The notes beneath the pieces were generated by a model that did no database searches, was not told where the DNA came from, and was given only the letters and a program-made list of their open reading frames with translations. From Chloroflexota bacterium (GTDB taxonomy: Bacteria > Chloroflexota > UBA6077 > SHYK01): a DNA stretch of 41,256 nt. The stretch covers positions 1-41,256 of the forward strand of contig WHTR01000001.1 of the NCBI GenBank assembly GCA_009377635.1, read 5' to 3'. Below, one piece after another: positions 2,555 to 26,796 of the stretch. Each line of letters starts with the position of its first letter. Within the stretch, counting starts at the first letter, position 1. Made by a program: the position numbers and the translations under genes.

Positions 2555-3706
2555 CTACGCCCCGATGATCTGGTGCATCCGCGGATGTACCGGTGTGCCC
2601 TTCCGGGCACACTCATCTTCGAATACCTGTCTCAGCTCCGCCAGGAGGTCCGGCGCGAGATCGGCGAAGGACGTCGACTGGCCACCGGGGTGTTCCCGCG
2701 TGCTCGTCATCGTGAGCTCGTGCGTCCGGCTGACCATGTTCTTCCGACTGCTGAGCTTGAGGGCGATGTAGCGGGCGGATTCCCGGCTGGTGACGTTGTG
2801 GCCGTGCCACCACCAGTTCGGCGGCACGATCAGGGTGCCTGGACCCCAGTCTTCCTTGATCTTGTTGGCTTCGCCGCCATCCGGCCAAAGGATGGAGTAC
2901 CCCTCCCCCTTGAGCCACAGCACGTGGGCAGCCGGCCCGTGACGGTGCACGCTCGTGAAGGTTCCGCCTGGCGACTCGAAGATATGCGAGCCAAGTACCC
3001 CATTGGCAAGCTCGAACGAGTAGCCACCGCCCCCCTCATTGAGGTTCTTGTCGATCGTGGGGTCGAATGCCGGTCGGGACTCCCGAGGGCGCTCGAATAC
3101 GTTATTGACGCTCGGCCACAGGTTGCTGAAATGCACGTTCTGTTGTCGGCCGCCCTTGACCCGGGACATGGTGCGTGACCTGACTTCCGCGTTGTAGTAG
3201 TCCTGCTCCTGATCGAAGCGGTCCTTGAATCGATAGGGGTTGTTGAAGATGAAATCGTCGTCGCGGATGAAGTTCATCATGGTCGGTGCCGTAGTCAGGG
3301 CGATGTAGCGGGCGGGCTCACTACCGGACACGTTGAAGTGCTGGTACCAGGCGTTGATGGGGATGGCGAACAGGCTGCTGGGCCCCCACTCGAAGAACCG
3401 CTTTCTATCCTCGTCGTACCAGACGCTCGTGCTGCCTCGACCGGTAAGCACGTAGACCAGCTCCTCGTAGACGTGCCGCATGGGATTCGTCTTGCGCGTC
3501 GGAGCGATCTCCTGGACGTACGCGGCCGCCTGCTCGCTGGCGCCGTCCAGCTCGATCTGCACTGCATCGGCGTCGGTTCGCGCCCAGTGGCGCAGCGGAA
3601 CGGTGAAGACGTTCTCCACGCGATGGCCCCGAATGAGCTCGAGTGCCTCGCGCGCAACCCAGTCCTCATAGTGGAAGCGATGCCACCAGCGCTCCGGATC
3701 CTCCAT
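2555..3706 (-). CDS. Bicupin protein, subfamily A (gentisate-dioxygenase-sized)
   Basis: This 383-residue protein carries two cupin barrels. The first has PMRHVYEELVYVLTGRG near residues 75-91 and INAWYQHFNVSGSEPARY near 116-133. The second has TSVHRHGPAAHVLWLKGEGY near residues 255-275 and VPPNWWWHGHNVTS near 297-310. The second barrel keeps the HxH metal motif. The first has only RHxxEE, so one usual His ligand is absent. Length and bicupin layout match gentisate 1,2-dioxygenase-type ring-cleavage enzymes, but nothing visible proves the substrate. The closest paralogue is at 36260-37387, and an N-terminal copy lies at 5894-6076. The start is ATG 3706, with GGAGAGGGAG just upstream on the minus strand. 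It diverges from the SBP at 4011, the first of four cupin-SBP adjacencies here. Confidence 0.85.
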   Translation of the reverse strand: MEDPERWWHRFHYEDWVAREALELIRGHRVENVFTVPLRHWARTDADAVQIELDGASEQAAAYVQEIAPTRKTNPMRHVYEELVYVLTGRGSTSVWYDEDRKRFFEWGPSSLFAIPINAWYQHFNVSGSEPARYIALTTAPTMMNFIRDDDFIFNNPYRFKDRFDQEQDYYNAEVRSRTMSRVKGGRQQNVHFSNLWPSVNNVFERPRESRPAFDPTIDKNLNEGGGGYSFELANGVLGSHIFESPGGTFTSVHRHGPAAHVLWLKGEGYSILWPDGGEANKIKEDWGPGTLIVPPNWWWHGHNVTSRESARYIALKLSSRKNMVSRTHELTMTSTREHPGGQSTSFADLAPDLLAELRQVFEDECARKGTPVHPRMHQIIGA

Positions 3707-19883: not shown

Positions 19884-20235
19884 TTGGTCGCCTTTCGCCA
19901 CGATATCTACCAGGGCATCCTCGGCCACCGGAAGGATAGCCAATTCGAGCTGATGGAGGCAGCCCTGGGCTCGTCCCGTCCGGAACCGCTGGGCCGCTTG
20001 AGGCTGGCACCCCAATTCAGCTGGGGCTGGGACAGCACCTGCAACGGGCTGGCCGACGGGTCGCTAGATGGGGAGCACTTGTGCCAGATGTGCGTCCGCT
20101 CGGTCCCCAGACCGGCCTGCGACGCCCGAGCGCCGTGGGTGATCGACGGGACCATCTGGCTGATCGTCGCTGGCCGAGGACCAGGGCGATGTCGGCCCGG
20201 CGCGGCCACGAGCCCGGTCGGGTCCGCCGTGCCTT
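19884..20235 (+). pseudogene. Transposase N-terminal scrap (IS701/IS4-like DDE)
   Basis: The reading frame gives FRHDIYQGILGHRKDSQFEL, then LGRLRLAPQFSWGWDSTCNG and LADGSLDGEHLCQMC, then APWVIDGTIWLIVAG. This resembles the start of a common high-G+C transposase whose N-terminus runs FR-x-Y...LFEL-x-DALL...RGHGALYDAL...VLAVDVSPW. The DGTIW segment sits where the first catalytic Asp would be. After about 20235 the frame loses all resemblance and the rest of the transposase is missing. From here to 20495 I see nothing recognisable. It is evidence of past insertion or rearrangement next to the EutA-like gene. Confidence 0.5.
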
Positions 20236-20495
20236 CCCAGATTTTTGGTGCAGCTGAACACACCTGCCCGGGCACCCAAACCCCGCGGACAAGCGCTCGG
20301 TCGCTCGGTCGGGCAACGGCCGGGCCGCCGGAAACGCCACCCCGTCGCCCGCCGGGGCACCAGACGGGCAGCGTGAATGGGCCTCGCACCCGAATCGCAT
20401 CGGTTGTCCGAGGATTCGTCCGAGCGAGCTGTCCGAAAGAATGCTATCATACGGAGCCTTGATCCCAATCCCCGGCGAGGGGGAGTTCGCCCAGA

Positions 20496-21950
20496 ATGTA
20501 TTCGTTCCGACATCACGAGCATGGCCACGATCACGACCACAATGACAACGCCATGGTCCATACCCACCTGACGAGTGTCGGTGTAGACATTGGATCGTCG
20601 ACTTCTCACCTCATGTTCTCGCGACTTACGGTAGGCTTCCCCTCGGTGCACCAGAGACGACCAGAGGTGTTGGATCGGCAGGTCATAAGTCGCTCGCCGG
20701 TGTCGCTCACCCCATTCGCTGATAGCCGTGACATCGAAGCTGGCCCTCTCGCCGATCTTGTTGGCCGAGCGTTCCGAGATGCGGGGCTCAACCCTGATTC
20801 GGTGGATACTGGGGCCATCATCATTACGGGCGAGGCAGCCCGGCGGAACAACGCTCAGCGCATTGTCGAGCTCCTCTCAGATCAGGCCGGCCGGTTCGTC
20901 TGCGCGACCGCAGGGCCACGCTTGGAGGCAATTCTCGCTGCTCACGGGTCGGGCGCCATCGCCAGGAGTCGTGAAGAAATCTCCCTTCTCCTACACCTCG
21001 ATGTAGGGGGCGGAACCACCAAGGTCAATCTCATCCGACAGGGCTCGATCCTTGGAACGTCAGCTCTAAACATTGGGGCGAGGCTTGTGGCGGTTGATGC
21101 CAATGATCGCCTAGTCCGTATAGAGCCAGCCGGGCACCGCATTCTCAAGGACGCGGGGCTCGACTGCCACGTGGGGGGGGTTCTTGCGCCGGATATTCGG
21201 AAGCTCCTCGCTCGACGGATGGCCAGTGTGCTCTTCGACTCGCTCTCGGGTGCAGATGCACCGTGGGCCGACTACTCTGTAATTCAGCCGTTCAACTTGC
21301 CGGAACGAGTAACCCAGCTCCTATTCTCAGGGGGAGTCGCCGAATACATCTACAATCGAGAAGCGAGAGCATTTGGAGACCTAGGACCCGATCTTGGGGA
21401 GGCCCTGACAGCTGAAGCCGTCAGGCGCGGATACGAGATCCTCGACGCAACGGAGGGGATTCGAGCTACGGTCATCGGAGCTGCGGAATACTCTGTTCAA
21501 ATGAGCGGCGAGACCATCTTCCTTCCCGATCCCGCGAAGCTTCCGATGCGAAACCTCCGCACGTTTGTGATCCCGATTAACCGGTCACCCGCAGTGGCCG
21601 ATGAGGTCGAGCGACGCATCCAGACGGTCGTACGAGAGCGGGACCCAGAAGTAACAGGCGACCCCTTCGCTGTGTTCATTTCCACGCCCCCGTTCTCGGG
21701 CTATGCCCTTGCACATGAGCTGGCCGACGGAATTAATCGGGGGCTGTCGTCGCTCGATCCGGACGAGCGTCCAGACCTTATGGTGTTCGAACAAAATTTC
21801 GGCCAGCTGATAGGCAAGATGCTCTCTCCGGGCATTCCGTGCATCGATGAGGTTCGTCTCTCAGAGCTCGACTTCATCGACGTGGGTGAGTTGGTCCCCG
21901 GCGAGGACTACGTCCCAGTGGTGGTCAAAAGCCTCGCCTTTGGGACCTAA
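20496..21950 (+). CDS. eutA: EutA-like ethanolamine ammonia-lyase reactivase (orphan)
   Basis: This 484-residue protein matches EutA, the ASKHA-fold ATPase that reactivates adenosylcobalamin-dependent ethanolamine ammonia-lyase by exchanging damaged cofactor. Seen: the phosphate-1 loop VGVDIGSSTSHLMFSRL near residues 28-44, DTGAIIITGEAARRNNAQR, the second phosphate loop LDVGGGTTKVNLI, the adenosine-side LFSGGVAEYI, and the C-terminal VVPVVVKSLAFGT-type ending (here VPVVVKSLAFGT). The first 24 residues hold eight His (HHEHGHDHDH then HTH), a possible metal-binding tail not typical of enteric EutA. ATG 20496 has GAGGGGGAG upstream. No eutB, eutC or other eut genes are in the window. The orphan either serves an enzyme elsewhere or a different partner. 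Confidence 0.88.
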   Translation: MYSFRHHEHGHDHDHNDNAMVHTHLTSVGVDIGSSTSHLMFSRLTVGFPSVHQRRPEVLDRQVISRSPVSLTPFADSRDIEAGPLADLVGRAFRDAGLNPDSVDTGAIIITGEAARRNNAQRIVELLSDQAGRFVCATAGPRLEAILAAHGSGAIARSREEISLLLHLDVGGGTTKVNLIRQGSILGTSALNIGARLVAVDANDRLVRIEPAGHRILKDAGLDCHVGGVLAPDIRKLLARRMASVLFDSLSGADAPWADYSVIQPFNLPERVTQLLFSGGVAEYIYNREARAFGDLGPDLGEALTAEAVRRGYEILDATEGIRATVIGAAEYSVQMSGETIFLPDPAKLPMRNLRTFVIPINRSPAVADEVERRIQTVVRERDPEVTGDPFAVFISTPPFSGYALAHELADGINRGLSSLDPDERPDLMVFEQNFGQLIGKMLSPGIPCIDEVRLSELDFIDVGELVPGEDYVPVVVKSLAFGT

Positions 21951-23237: not shown

Positions 23238-23549
23238 CTACGTGAGCAACCGATCGTCCACGGGGATGGGACCCAGGGGTGGGCGCACCTGGGGATGCCA
23301 GGCCTTGACGTACCCCTCATCCCGCGGCCGGACGAACACGAGTGGATCGCCCGCGACGGGGACGAGCAGCTTCGCCCCGGGCACGTCGAGGTTGAGCACG
23401 TAGCGCCGAAACACGCCGTCGCTGAGAACCAGCGCGCCCACACGTTGGCGCTGCATTTCGGCTTGGACGAGCGCGGTTCGATCGTGGTTGAGGCACTGGT
23501 CATCGCACTTCCCTACTCGGCCTGCCGAGGACGTCGTCATCGTTGGCAC
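23238..23549 (-). pseudogene. N-terminal stub of an M24 (Xaa-Pro peptidase / creatinase-like) protein
   Basis: The frame encodes about 103 residues, including RTALVQAEMQRQRVGALVLS and PGAKLLVPVAGDPLVFVRP followed by DEGYVKAW. This is the pattern of the N-terminal creatinase/prolidase domain of M24 enzymes. It then stops; the roughly 250-residue pita-bread catalytic domain with its metal ligands is absent, so it cannot be an active peptidase. It sits between the bicupin and FAH genes in the same direction. In related clusters M24-type proteins can act as amidohydrolases or lyases. Whether the stub is translated is unknown. Confidence 0.6.
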
Positions 23550-23708: not shown

Positions 23709-24857
23709 TCATACTCCCGTACCTGCCAGCAGACGATTCATGGTGAATTCCAGTCCGTTCTCCTTGAGCTCGCGCATGAAGTCGCGCCGAATCCGAGGAT
23801 CCTCTTCCTCATACTCGATAAGCGTCCCGCCCTCGCTCACGCTCACCTGCTGTCCGGCTCGGCTCGCCGCCGAGTGGAAGACGACGTCGTGGCGATGGCT
23901 GCCGAGGCGGAAGGCCAGCTGTCGGGCGACCGTCTTCCCAGTGTTGAAGTGTTGGTGAAACCAGCCGCTCGCTGGGCTAATCAGGCTGTTATCGGCCCAG
24001 TCAACGCGAATGACCTTATCCTCATTGCCACTCTCATACGGCCGGACTCCCGCCTCCGGCGGCCACATCAGCGAGAAGCCGCTGCAGTCGGACACGTGCA
24101 GGATAATCGCGCCGGCGCCATGCGCATGTGCCTTGTGGTAGCAGCCAGCGGGAAACTCATACAGATGCCCCGCCAGCACATTGCCGCCCATTTGGTAGTG
24201 GGTGCCGCGCCCGCCAGCCGATTTCACGGGATCGTCGATCAGGTCCAGACCGCGAACGTCCGGGATGAGGTTCGTTTCCCAGAGCCACTTCCGGCCTGGC
24301 TCAAAGTAGAACCGTTCCTTCACCTCATACCAACCCGGCTCGCCACTGTAGCGGTCCGTGAACTGATAGTCACAGTTGAAGACGAAATCCTCGTTATGGA
24401 AGAGGTCCAGAACCATCGGGGCGGTCGTCGCGCCCACGACCAGGGCAGGGTCGGACCCCGACAGATTGAACAACTGGTGCCAGGTGTTGTTCGGAGGCGA
24501 GAACATGCTGCCCCGCCGCCACTCAAACACCGAGGGCATCCCAACCGGTGCCTCGCGCGCGCCCGCCCACACCTTGGCGGTGCCATGGCCAGCCATGACG
24601 TACATGGTTTCGTCGTAGAGGTGCCGCTCGGGATTGAGCGATCGTCCCGGCGCGATCTCGGCGATCCAGAAGCCTGTAATGCCCTCCTGGCCGAGCAGAT
24701 CGACGTAGGCGCCGCGCCCGCCCATTCGTGGCCACGGAGCCAACTCGAGTTGCGCAAGATCCGAGATGCCCTGGCCGCGATAGATTGGGATTGTCTCAGA
24801 GCGAATGAACGTCTGATATCCAGAGGTCCTTGGCCGCTGGTTGTTATCCTGCGTCAC
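23709..24857 (-). CDS. Bicupin protein, subfamily B
   Basis: This 382-residue protein contains two cupin barrels. The first has NPERHLYDETMYVMAGHGTA near residues 75-94 and PPNNTWHQLFNLSGSDPALV near 121-140. The second has GCYHKAHAHGAGAIILHVSD near residues 247-266 and [20 protein letters not shown] near 301-320. As in subfamily A, the first barrel has RH-x-Y-x-E rather than a full HxH. The second has HAHG. It ends with VSEGGTLIEYEEEDPRI and a helix. It is distinct by eye from the 2555 and 36260 proteins (FHQHFNTG rather than WWWHxH in barrel two). Remnants of the same subfamily are at 10609 and 24924. It lies downstream of a UbiD decarboxylase on the same strand, as the subfamily-A bicupin does at 36260. 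Confidence 0.87.
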   Translation of the reverse strand: MTQDNNQRPRTSGYQTFIRSETIPIYRGQGISDLAQLELAPWPRMGGRGAYVDLLGQEGITGFWIAEIAPGRSLNPERHLYDETMYVMAGHGTAKVWAGAREAPVGMPSVFEWRRGSMFSPPNNTWHQLFNLSGSDPALVVGATTAPMVLDLFHNEDFVFNCDYQFTDRYSGEPGWYEVKERFYFEPGRKWLWETNLIPDVRGLDLIDDPVKSAGGRGTHYQMGGNVLAGHLYEFPAGCYHKAHAHGAGAIILHVSDCSGFSLMWPPEAGVRPYESGNEDKVIRVDWADNSLISPASGWFHQHFNTGKTVARQLAFRLGSHRHDVVFHSAASRAGQQVSVSEGGTLIEYEEEDPRIRRDFMRELKENGLEFTMNRLLAGTGV

Positions 24858-25344: not shown

Positions 25345-26796
25345 CTACTCCCCAGCTGTGCTAATGAAGTCCCTCGTCTGACTGCCAGGCACCCGGTGCG
25401 GCGCATTCGGTATGTAGTCCTCTAGCTGCACCTCAGCCATTACCTCGGGCGGAATGAACGAGCGCTGTTCGTAGAGCGCGGGCGCCGCTGGTTTCGTGCA
25501 ATCCACGCCGGCGCTCGTCCCCAAGCGGGGACCCGTCGCGGTCGGGTCGAGGTCCGTCGTGGGCGAGTTCGGCACGATGATCAGGTCCTTCTCCCAGTCA
25601 GATCGGGACCCAATGGCCCATAGCACCTCCTGCTCGTCGAAGATGTCCACATCTTCATCGAACACGAACACGTGCTTAACTGAGCCACTGGCAGCGGCCA
25701 GCGCCGCCAGGATCGCCATCCGCGGCTGTGCGTCGTTCGTCTTGTGCATCTGAATGTACATATGATTGGGCGATGAGCCGGGCCGGTACACGTTGGTCAC
25801 CTCCGGGGCGACGCGGCTCACAACCTCGTAGACCGCGCCCTCCCGGCGAAGGCCACCAAGGCCAAACCCTTCGTCGGGACCGCCACAAATGAGCGAGAAC
25901 CAAAATGGGTCTTTCCGATGGCTAATACAGGTCACTTCCATATAAGGATTCAGGCGCTGGCCGCCGAAATAGCGAGTGTACTCACCAAACGGACCCTCTG
26001 GCTTCCGTTTCCCTCGTGGCACGATGCCCTCGATGACAAACTCCGCGTCCGCGGGCACCATGAAGTCGTCCCCCAATGTCTCGGACGGCACGAGCCGCAG
26101 TGGCTCCCCGAGAAGACCTCCGGTCGCGTCCCAGTGGCTCTCCGGATAGCGAAGCTTGACGCCTGCTCCGAGGTACACGGCGGGATGGTGGCCCACCCAG
26201 TACGCCACACGCATGTGCTCGCCCCGGTCCTCCCATTTGCGCAGGTTCTGGCCGTTGTGACTCGAATGGTTCGGAAATATCCGGATCTCCTGGCGGTCGA
26301 AGATCCAGCCGCGCTGCAGTGCGCAATTGTCGATTCCGCTCTCAGGGTCGTAGGTGGTCAGGAAGCCGAGCGGGATGTACGGACCGGGGTCCCAGCCGGC
26401 ATGCACTAGTGCCGGCAGCTCCCGCGCATTCACTGCATCCCCTGTTGCCACGACCTCTTTGACGGGGGCCGCTGCGTGATCTACGATTACCGGTGCGACC
26501 CGCTTCGCTCGCCGCTCGTGCATCTCGCAGCCCAAGCGCTCGAAGCTGCCCCCGACCGCGAACGCACAGCGCTGGCGGGACGCGAACAGATTCATCACGA
26601 CCGGCCAGGGCGAGACCTCTCCGTCCACCGTACGCACGCGGTGGAAAACCAGGAGCGGCGCTTCGCGCATAGCCTTCTGGGTCTTGACGGCGATGGCGGC
26701 CGCCTCCCAGCGCGCGCTGACCTCTTTCTCAATGTGCACCACCTGCGCCGGATAATGCTCTTCGAGCCCGCTCAGGAACGTTCGAAAGTCCTTCAC
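25345..26796 (-). CDS. UbiD-family prenylated-FMN decarboxylase
   Basis: This 483-residue protein is of full UbiD length. The catalytic acidic pair is visible in EGPFGEYTRYF (Glu267 and Glu272). Also seen are DNCALQRGWIF with a candidate catalytic Arg near 162, and AYWVGHHPAVYLGAG near 198-212. UbiD enzymes reversibly (de)carboxylate aromatic or unsaturated acids using prenylated FMN made by UbiX, which is not in the window. The start is GTG 26796 with GGAGGAG four bases upstream on the minus strand. Upstream lies the binding-fold protein at 27149-28069, downstream two cupin copies, an M24 stub and an FAH hydrolase, all in one direction. The paralogue at 34818 is clearly diverged (NVGTYR and EGPFGEYTGYY there). 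Confidence 0.93.
   Translation of the reverse strand: MKDFRTFLSGLEEHYPAQVVHIEKEVSARWEAAAIAVKTQKAMREAPLLVFHRVRTVDGEVSPWPVVMNLFASRQRCAFAVGGSFERLGCEMHERRAKRVAPVIVDHAAAPVKEVVATGDAVNARELPALVHAGWDPGPYIPLGFLTTYDPESGIDNCALQRGWIFDRQEIRIFPNHSSHNGQNLRKWEDRGEHMRVAYWVGHHPAVYLGAGVKLRYPESHWDATGGLLGEPLRLVPSETLGDDFMVPADAEFVIEGIVPRGKRKPEGPFGEYTRYFGGQRLNPYMEVTCISHRKDPFWFSLICGGPDEGFGLGGLRREGAVYEVVSRVAPEVTNVYRPGSSPNHMYIQMHKTNDAQPRMAILAALAAASGSVKHVFVFDEDVDIFDEQEVLWAIGSRSDWEKDLIIVPNSPTTDLDPTATGPRLGTSAGVDCTKPAAPALYEQRSFIPPEVMAEVQLEDYIPNAPHRVPGSQTRDFISTAGE

Follow-up and report, generated by a model that had tools for sequence, protein, structure and literature searches.

The gene at 20496-21950 (+) of the window, the whole 41,256-nucleotide stretch of Chloroflexota DNA analyzed here, belongs to a distinct EutA-like subfamily that stands apart from the eutBC-linked EutAs, and bicupin genes are recurrent neighbors of this subfamily. 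The computational evidence covers the identity of the subfamily, its nucleotide motifs, the His-rich tails found family-wide, the way in which its genes pair and co-vary with those of bicupins, and the lack of EutBC. On sequence grounds, the chances appear about even that the EutA-like ATPase uses ATP to load or repair the metal centers of bicupins, which are kin of gentisate 1,2-dioxygenase.

The EutA-like gene and its product

The ORF is correctly placed at 20496-21950 (+), starts with ATG and encodes 484 aa. An earlier note on this DNA had described it as a EutA, and its match to PF06277 (Pfam EutA) bears out the family, with 362.5 bits against a cut-off of 27 over profile positions 2-474 of 475. 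By this full-length match above the Pfam cut-off, the window protein is a EutA at the superfamily level. It scores far below the cut-offs of all four NCBIfam EutA equivalogs (289.7 against 598, 255.9 against 769, 218 against 799 and 182.3 against 952). The features of the gene are the following.

20477-20485 (+): Shine-Dalgarno-like GAGGGGGAG, 10 bases 5' of the ATG, purine-rich, read by eye
20496-21950 (+): EutA-like ASKHA ATPase of the cupin-associated subfamily, 484 aa, assigned by PF06277, tree and AF2 model
20511-20567 (+): His-rich N-terminal tail, residues 6-24, in a stretch with 8 His; residues 1-16 predicted disordered; from sequence and pLDDT
20586-20603 (+): phosphate-1 motif DIGSST, residues 31-36, with clade-specific S34, from the alignment column
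21000-21023 (+): phosphate-2 motif DVGGGTTK, residues 169-176, with clade-specific K176, from the alignment column
21327-21344 (+): adenosine motif SGGVAE, residues 278-283, with clade-specific E283, from the alignment column

The names phosphate-1, phosphate-2 and adenosine are those that we take to apply to DIGSST, DVGGGTTK and SGGVAE. The AF2 model of the window protein has an overall pLDDT of 88.6 and an actin-like fold. PPX/GppA, FtsA, PilM and archerase-type ATPases are among its structural matches, with Z of about 13-17 and rmsd of 3.7-6.0 over 217-268 residues for the matches listed, and 2-hydroxyacyl-CoA dehydratase activators and AnmK- and sugar-kinase-like entries are found there too. 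The two-domain actin-like model and the three nucleotide motifs together indicate that the protein has the ASKHA ATPase fold. A phmmer search of the window protein against the PDB gave no sequence match, and DDR or EutA structures are absent from the 50 matches listed in each of two structure comparisons. The DDR/GDR large subunit and the archerase-type activators (HgdC/HadI) belong to the ASKHA ATPases and keep a different enzyme working by repairing or activating it, and the window protein resembles the archerase type in that 2-hydroxyacyl-CoA dehydratase activators are among its structure matches. Archerases carry an Fe-S cluster.

A subfamily apart from the ethanolamine ammonia-lyase partner

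Five EutA-family genes, either whole or cut by a contig end, are present in the genome from which the window comes (3.5 Mb in 343 contigs, 84% complete); they lie on C166, C291, C111 (the window gene), C325 and C42. The label "orphan EutA" in the earlier note is therefore misleading, since the gene has four paralogues here and belongs to a distinct subfamily. The absence of eutBC, which that note had read from the window, extends to the whole of the 84% complete genome: the EutB profile (PF06751) gives no match there, and the whole-genome search rules out eutBC just outside the window. EutB is also lacking in all 41 genomes made up of this one and 40 relatives, where the E. coli positive control matched and 12 genomes have a full-length EutA-family member. 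The suggestion that the client is not EutBC is supported. Among the 43 genomes behind 50 of 80 loci from relatives, which were searched for both EutB and NicO, EutB is found in one, Ammoniphilus. By tblastn, neither eutB nor eutC occurs in any of 96 EutA-like loci. The genome has one protein with a B12-binding domain, encoded on C275, and none on the EutA-bearing contigs; the diol dehydratase profile PF02286 matched nothing anywhere, controls included. Short EutA-model matches of 20-36 bits in many genomes were rejected as FtsA-type noise, and the example in the window's own genome reads as FtsA by eye.

The loci of relatives are the best 80 of 576 and so lean toward kin of the paralogues in this genome. 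Their hosts include Chloroflexota, Deltaproteobacteria, Rokubacteria, Alpha- and Betaproteobacteria, Streptomyces and others. The closest relatives in this set are L042-L048, which are 53-58% identical to the window protein and come from sources titled as Deltaproteobacteria, Proteobacteria and Syntrophobacter MAGs.

A quick IQ-TREE tree of 107 rows, with just eight eutBC-linked references, places those eight EutAs in one clade with a support of 100 and the other 99 rows outside it. L016 and L017, which lie on the same contigs as L076 and L058, were left out of the tree, the tail counts and the pairing statistics, and the EutA-like rows below 400 aa (L048 and L011) were left out of the tree and the tail counts. 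The window protein groups with L042-L047 with a support of 100, in a group of seven rows of which four are cupin-linked. Several alignment columns separate the two sides. K176 is found in 96/99 EutA-like rows against N in 8/8 eutBC-linked ones, S34 in 92/99 against T in 8/8, and A149 in 97/99 against G in 8/8; E283 is found in 99/99 against 1/8 and Q335 in 98/99 against 0/8. The window protein carries the full subfamily signature (K176, E283, S34, Q335). It resembles EutA in its full-length Pfam match, its nucleotide-binding motifs and its overall length, but differs in lying outside the eutBC-linked clade, in the residues K176, E283, S34, Q335 and A149, in falling below the equivalog cut-offs, and in having no eutBC nearby and no EutB in its genome. 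It therefore belongs to a distinct EutA-like subfamily.

In the tree, three archaeal loci, L102, L103 and L104 (two Thorarchaeota and one "archaeon"), are the first to branch off among the EutA-like rows. Their EutA-like genes have no cupin in the locus and adjoin genes that by eye are pyridoxamine-oxidase-like and mechanosensitive-channel-like. L103 and L104, where the tails are readable (in L102 they are not), have no His tail.

Bicupins are the recurrent neighbors

The 96 loci gave 994 proteins by simple codon-usage gene calling, with approximate starts. The commonest cluster other than EutA is a bicupin, with 100 copies in 63 of the loci. It lies immediately upstream on the same strand of 43/102 EutA-like genes, nearly always within 210 bases, and immediately downstream of 9/102 (two duplicate loci are included in both counts). 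An adjacent same-strand bicupin within 350 bp accompanies 50/100 EutA-like genes, compared to 57/789 other non-cupin genes in the same loci (Fisher 1.3e-24, with neighboring genes not independent). Within five genes the count is 64/100, and many loci are truncated. In four regions of G040, chosen because searches had already located both genes in or near them, a bicupin is the nearest or second-nearest gene to the EutA-like one. The earlier note had named a cupin pathway as a possible client, and this recurrent neighbor supports it.

The two families also occur together across genomes. Of the 41 genomes, 14 have the bicupin, among them 12/12 that have a full-length EutA; two have the bicupin only (one match each) and 27 have neither (Fisher 1.2e-8). 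For 44 adjacent EutA-bicupin pairs, the distance matrices correlate with r = 0.64, a value reached in 0 of 2000 permutations, although part of it comes from the common ancestry of the hosts. Copy numbers of the two families in the EutA-bearing genomes show no significant correlation (rho 0.40, p 0.20), and the stoichiometry can be uneven, with 44 bicupins and 1 EutA in G001.

The cupins next to EutA-like genes match Cupin_2, and match the gentisate and 5-aminosalicylate dioxygenase models weakly to strongly. The L047 cupin (L047:6848-7864) scores 342 and 311 bits on these two models, below their cut-offs of 650 and 442, and the other scanned cupins are far more distant. Like gentisate 1,2-dioxygenase and 5-aminosalicylate dioxygenase, the partners are bicupins with HxH...H metal-type motifs, and the nearest solved structures to them are gentisate 1,2-dioxygenases. 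In the C-terminal cupin domain, the two His of HxH are kept in 73 and 73 of 76 sequences and those of HQH in 74 and 76 of 76, where 24/100 cupins of 300 aa or less were left out. Judged by these kept motifs, the proposed client family is of a metal-binding type. A structure model of the partner cupin reached a pLDDT of 56 from 11 sequences and was set aside.

Bicupins are numerous in these organisms, with 21 places in the window's own genome (G000), 44 in G001, 37 in G002 and 31 in the more distant G040. G000, G001 and G002 represent the window's own family, which has a large bicupin expansion. In the window, the bicupins stand among UbiD, Rieske, molybdenum hydroxylase and solute-binding genes.

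His-rich tails

The earlier note had counted eight His in the first 24 residues of the window protein, and this is exact. The pLDDT is below 50 at residues 1-16 of the model, and the tail is predicted to be disordered on this basis. Six orthologues with a readable N-terminus among L042-L048 have 5-8 His in tails of 18-29 residues, and in L047 the single Met of the tail stands ahead of the His run. The possibility that the tail is an upstream artifact of start choice was rejected, as the N-terminal His run is kept in the orthologues L042-L047. The Shine-Dalgarno-like stretch read by eye ahead of the ATG also speaks for this start.

Across the EutA-like family, 70/99 rows have at least three His in one tail and 33/99 have at least five. 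His makes up 349/3504 residues (10.0%) of the N-tails and 170/1015 residues (16.7%) of the C-tails in the 99 rows, the N landmark being missing in 7 and the C landmark in 12 of them, compared to 2.0% of the core. The C-terminal tails of L087, L120, L014 and L008, among the longest, contain 13 to 26 His. In the eight eutBC-adjacent EutAs, His accounts for 1/65 N-tail residues and 0/14 C-tail residues, and 0/8 have three or more in a tail. Since tail His are family-wide and absent from these eight, a metal-binding or metallochaperone-like role, as the earlier note had suggested, is plausible from composition and predicted disorder. The tail is inessential to the family, because its position and length differ across the EutA-like rows and 29/99 lack three tail His.

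HypB, UreE, SlyD and CooJ are His-tailed nickel chaperones that are GTPases or small chaperones. Compared by description, they resemble the window protein in having a disordered His-rich tail on a folded domain.

An apparently displaced partner on the contig, and mobile-element debris

The genes that directly flank the window gene lie on the other strand and encode a family-5 solute-binding protein and an FAA hydrolase. The other features that concern the locus are the following.

2555-3706 (-): second bicupin of the partner family, by cluster membership
19891-20376 (no strand assigned): decayed mobile-element remnant of DDE_Tnp_1 type, with copies in the same genome on C284
22216-23175 (-): FAA hydrolase (FAA_hydrolase, 227 bits)
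23709-24857 (-): bicupin of the partner family, 382 aa, Cupin_2 28.7 bits, in the same cluster as the EutA-adjacent cupins
25345-26796 (-): UbiD-family decarboxylase, 166 bits
36260-37387 (+): third bicupin of the window, Cupin_2 44.9 bits, with weak gentisate/5-aminosalicylate dioxygenase matches

The window gene has no adjoining bicupin; the nearest, at 23709-24857, is on the opposite strand three genes off and keeps the C-terminal HxH...HQH metal-type motif. In the orthologous loci L042, L043, L044 and L047, one type of cupin lies directly 5' of the EutA gene. This makes 4/7 orthologous loci with an adjacent cupin, and two of the six with a full EutA call (L045 and L046) lack it. The orthologue of this cupin in the window's own genome is at C111:46980-48029 (-), about 25 kb downstream on the same contig. 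It is intact and 55% identical to the L047-type cupin (410 bits), and the next match in the genome has 88 bits. The earlier note's statement that the gene sits alone is thus true of its immediate neighbors, but not of the contig, which has the partner-cupin orthologue, nor of the genome, which has four further paralogues. The FAA hydrolase of the window is 34-35% identical to proteins of L047 and L044, where the cupin-EutA pair is found.

The EutA gene has a GC content of 59.4% and the partner cupin 59.0%, whereas the window as a whole has 64.3% and the four remaining EutA paralogues 65-68%. Two bicupins next to the partner cupin have 59.1 and 57.2%, and the low GC may therefore mark a longer piece of imported DNA. 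C111:46013-46771, also beside the partner cupin, matches no Pfam family and nothing in the orthologous loci. The EutA-like gene and its partner bicupin appear to have been acquired jointly and later separated by about 25 kb, and the donor was perhaps Deltaproteobacterium-like.

The transposase scrap reported in the earlier note is real. The remnant matches in pieces (19891-20068, 20131-20160 and 20210-20376) with 83-93% identity to an element on C284, the ORF of which is a DDE_Tnp_1 transposase (35.7 bits). The 600 bases upstream of the window gene are partly repeated elsewhere in the genome.

Two further observations concern the surroundings. Part of the remnant is repeated at C111:48210-48320, 181 bp before the start of the partner cupin. 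In L146, an M24 (creatinase-type) peptidase gene stands between the cupin and EutA genes; the 100-aa fragment at 23238-23540 (-), which has no Pfam match alone, looks by eye like the N-terminal portion of this peptidase.

Other gene contexts and metal transport

Some EutA-like genes have other neighbors. Ten Deltaproteobacterial copies precede Lactamase_B_5 or a small-protein/TPR operon, and the paralogue L008 in the window's own genome lies downstream of two Amidohydro_2 genes. L063, L073 and L098 have the EutA-like gene 3' of UbiD and 5' of a NicO transporter. L071:7869-15577, from Caulobacter sp. S45, a possibly culturable host, is an apparent seven-gene operon in the order His-tailed EutA, bicupin, two ChrA-like genes (by eye), NicO, bicupin and a second EutA-like gene. 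In L132, NixA and NikR flank cupin-EutA. Bicupins, MBL-fold proteins, UbiD, amidohydrolases and M24 peptidases are mostly metal-dependent enzyme types, and for this reason the link proposed between them is metal, not B12.

The link to metal transporters covers only five loci in three independent lineages. NicO as a general partner was rejected, since only 4/46 NicO rows in the 43 searched genomes fall in EutA loci, and nickel is kept as a hint only for this reason. No NicO above the cut-off is present in the window's own genome.

A Deltaproteobacterial clade (L053, L061, L062, L065, L069, L074, L081, L085, L088, L089 and L100) has no cupin in its loci, and several members have His-rich C-terminal ends. 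The neighbors are MBL-fold proteins (Lactamase_B_5), or a 61-aa membrane-like protein and a TPR gene, followed in some loci by ferredoxin-like and pyruvate-carboxylase-like genes (by eye). It is possible that this clade has a different client.

Proposed function

Damaged cobalamin is exchanged when EutA or diol dehydratase reactivase opens the enzyme that it serves. By analogy, the EutA-like ATPase would bind its bicupin client, and nucleotide binding or hydrolysis would open the bicupin, so that an oxidized or wrong metal, an empty site or a dead-end ligand could be cleared. The disordered His-rich tail, a plausible metal ligand by its composition, would then offer a divalent metal to the emptied site. 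The metal transferred would be iron by homology of the client to gentisate dioxygenase; nickel or cobalt is hinted at by the NicO transporters beside three independent lineages. The non-cupin partners of some clades (Lactamase_B_5/TPR, UbiD in three loci, amidohydrolases in L008) are points against a service to bicupins. So are the uneven and uncorrelated copy numbers, the rows with few tail His, the narrow NicO link, and the missing adjacent cupin in L045 and L046.

Alternative explanations

Acetone carboxylase and hydantoinase have an ASKHA component that acts on the substrate by phosphorylation or activation. The bicupin and the EutA-like ATPase could similarly be two parts of one ATP-dependent catabolic enzyme, in which the ASKHA part phosphorylates or activates a substrate and the cupin completes the reaction. 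The tight pairing and co-variation, the catabolic enzymes nearby, and a fold common to kinases and other ATP-using enzymes (the AnmK- and sugar-kinase-like structure matches) would suit such an enzyme. It is nevertheless unlikely, because copy numbers are as uneven as 1 EutA to 44 bicupins in G001, the MBL-fold, UbiD or amidohydrolase partners of some EutA-like proteins fit a service role better, and the His tails have no obvious place in it.

The metal-dependent gene types adjacent in different clades (bicupin, MBL-fold, UbiD, amidohydrolase and M24 peptidase), the NicO/NikR neighbors and the long His tails on some copies would also be consistent with a generic metallochaperone, or with an ATPase that buffers metals such as nickel, cobalt or zinc, that serves several metalloenzymes, cupins being merely the commonest. 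This is unlikely, since one type of partner gene tends to hold within a clade, 29/99 rows have few tail His, and the co-variation with the cupin suggests a specific partner.

It is quite unlikely that the window copy is a decaying, non-functional leftover cut from its operon by mobile elements. The transposon debris directly upstream, the partner cupin 25 kb off, a GC3 of 0.65 in a 64% GC window and a long end branch (0.61) point that way, but the frame of 484 codons is intact, the protein has lost neither its His tail nor any nucleotide motif, a Shine-Dalgarno-like site is present, and the partner cupin is likewise undamaged.

The enzymes served by EutA and diol dehydratase reactivases are AdoCbl eliminases, and the earlier note had considered a different B12 enzyme as client. 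Despite PF06277 membership and intact nucleotide motifs, it is very improbable that the protein reactivates some B12 enzyme that is not EutBC, given no EutB in this genome or its 40 relatives, no eutB or eutC beside any of the 96 loci, a lone B12-binding domain for five EutA paralogues and on a contig that has none of them, the separate position in the tree, and the residue changes close to the nucleotide motifs.

Implications

A wider form of the proposed metal-loading and repair role can be stated, with somewhat less than an even chance: widespread actin-fold ATPases annotated as EutA would insert or repair the metal of ring-cleaving or related bicupins, using a tethered His-rich metal store. 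We know of no dedicated ATP-driven maturation and repair system for cupins, and this would be one. By titles and the openings of abstracts, with thin coverage of subscription journals, no literature on a EutA-cupin pair or a His-rich EutA was found; the "EutA" of an ectoine review is probably another protein. At least L132 carries the automatic name "ethanolamine ammonia-lyase reactivating factor", a label that misleads as to both client and cofactor. If the pairing is meaningful, an ATPase family regarded as tied to B12 chemistry has come to serve metal-dependent cupins, and how cupins acquire and regain their metal in vivo becomes testable. The link to the EutA-like proteins would also provide a handle on an expanded and uncharacterized set of bicupins, with 21 to 44 places per genome in the three genomes of the window's own family.
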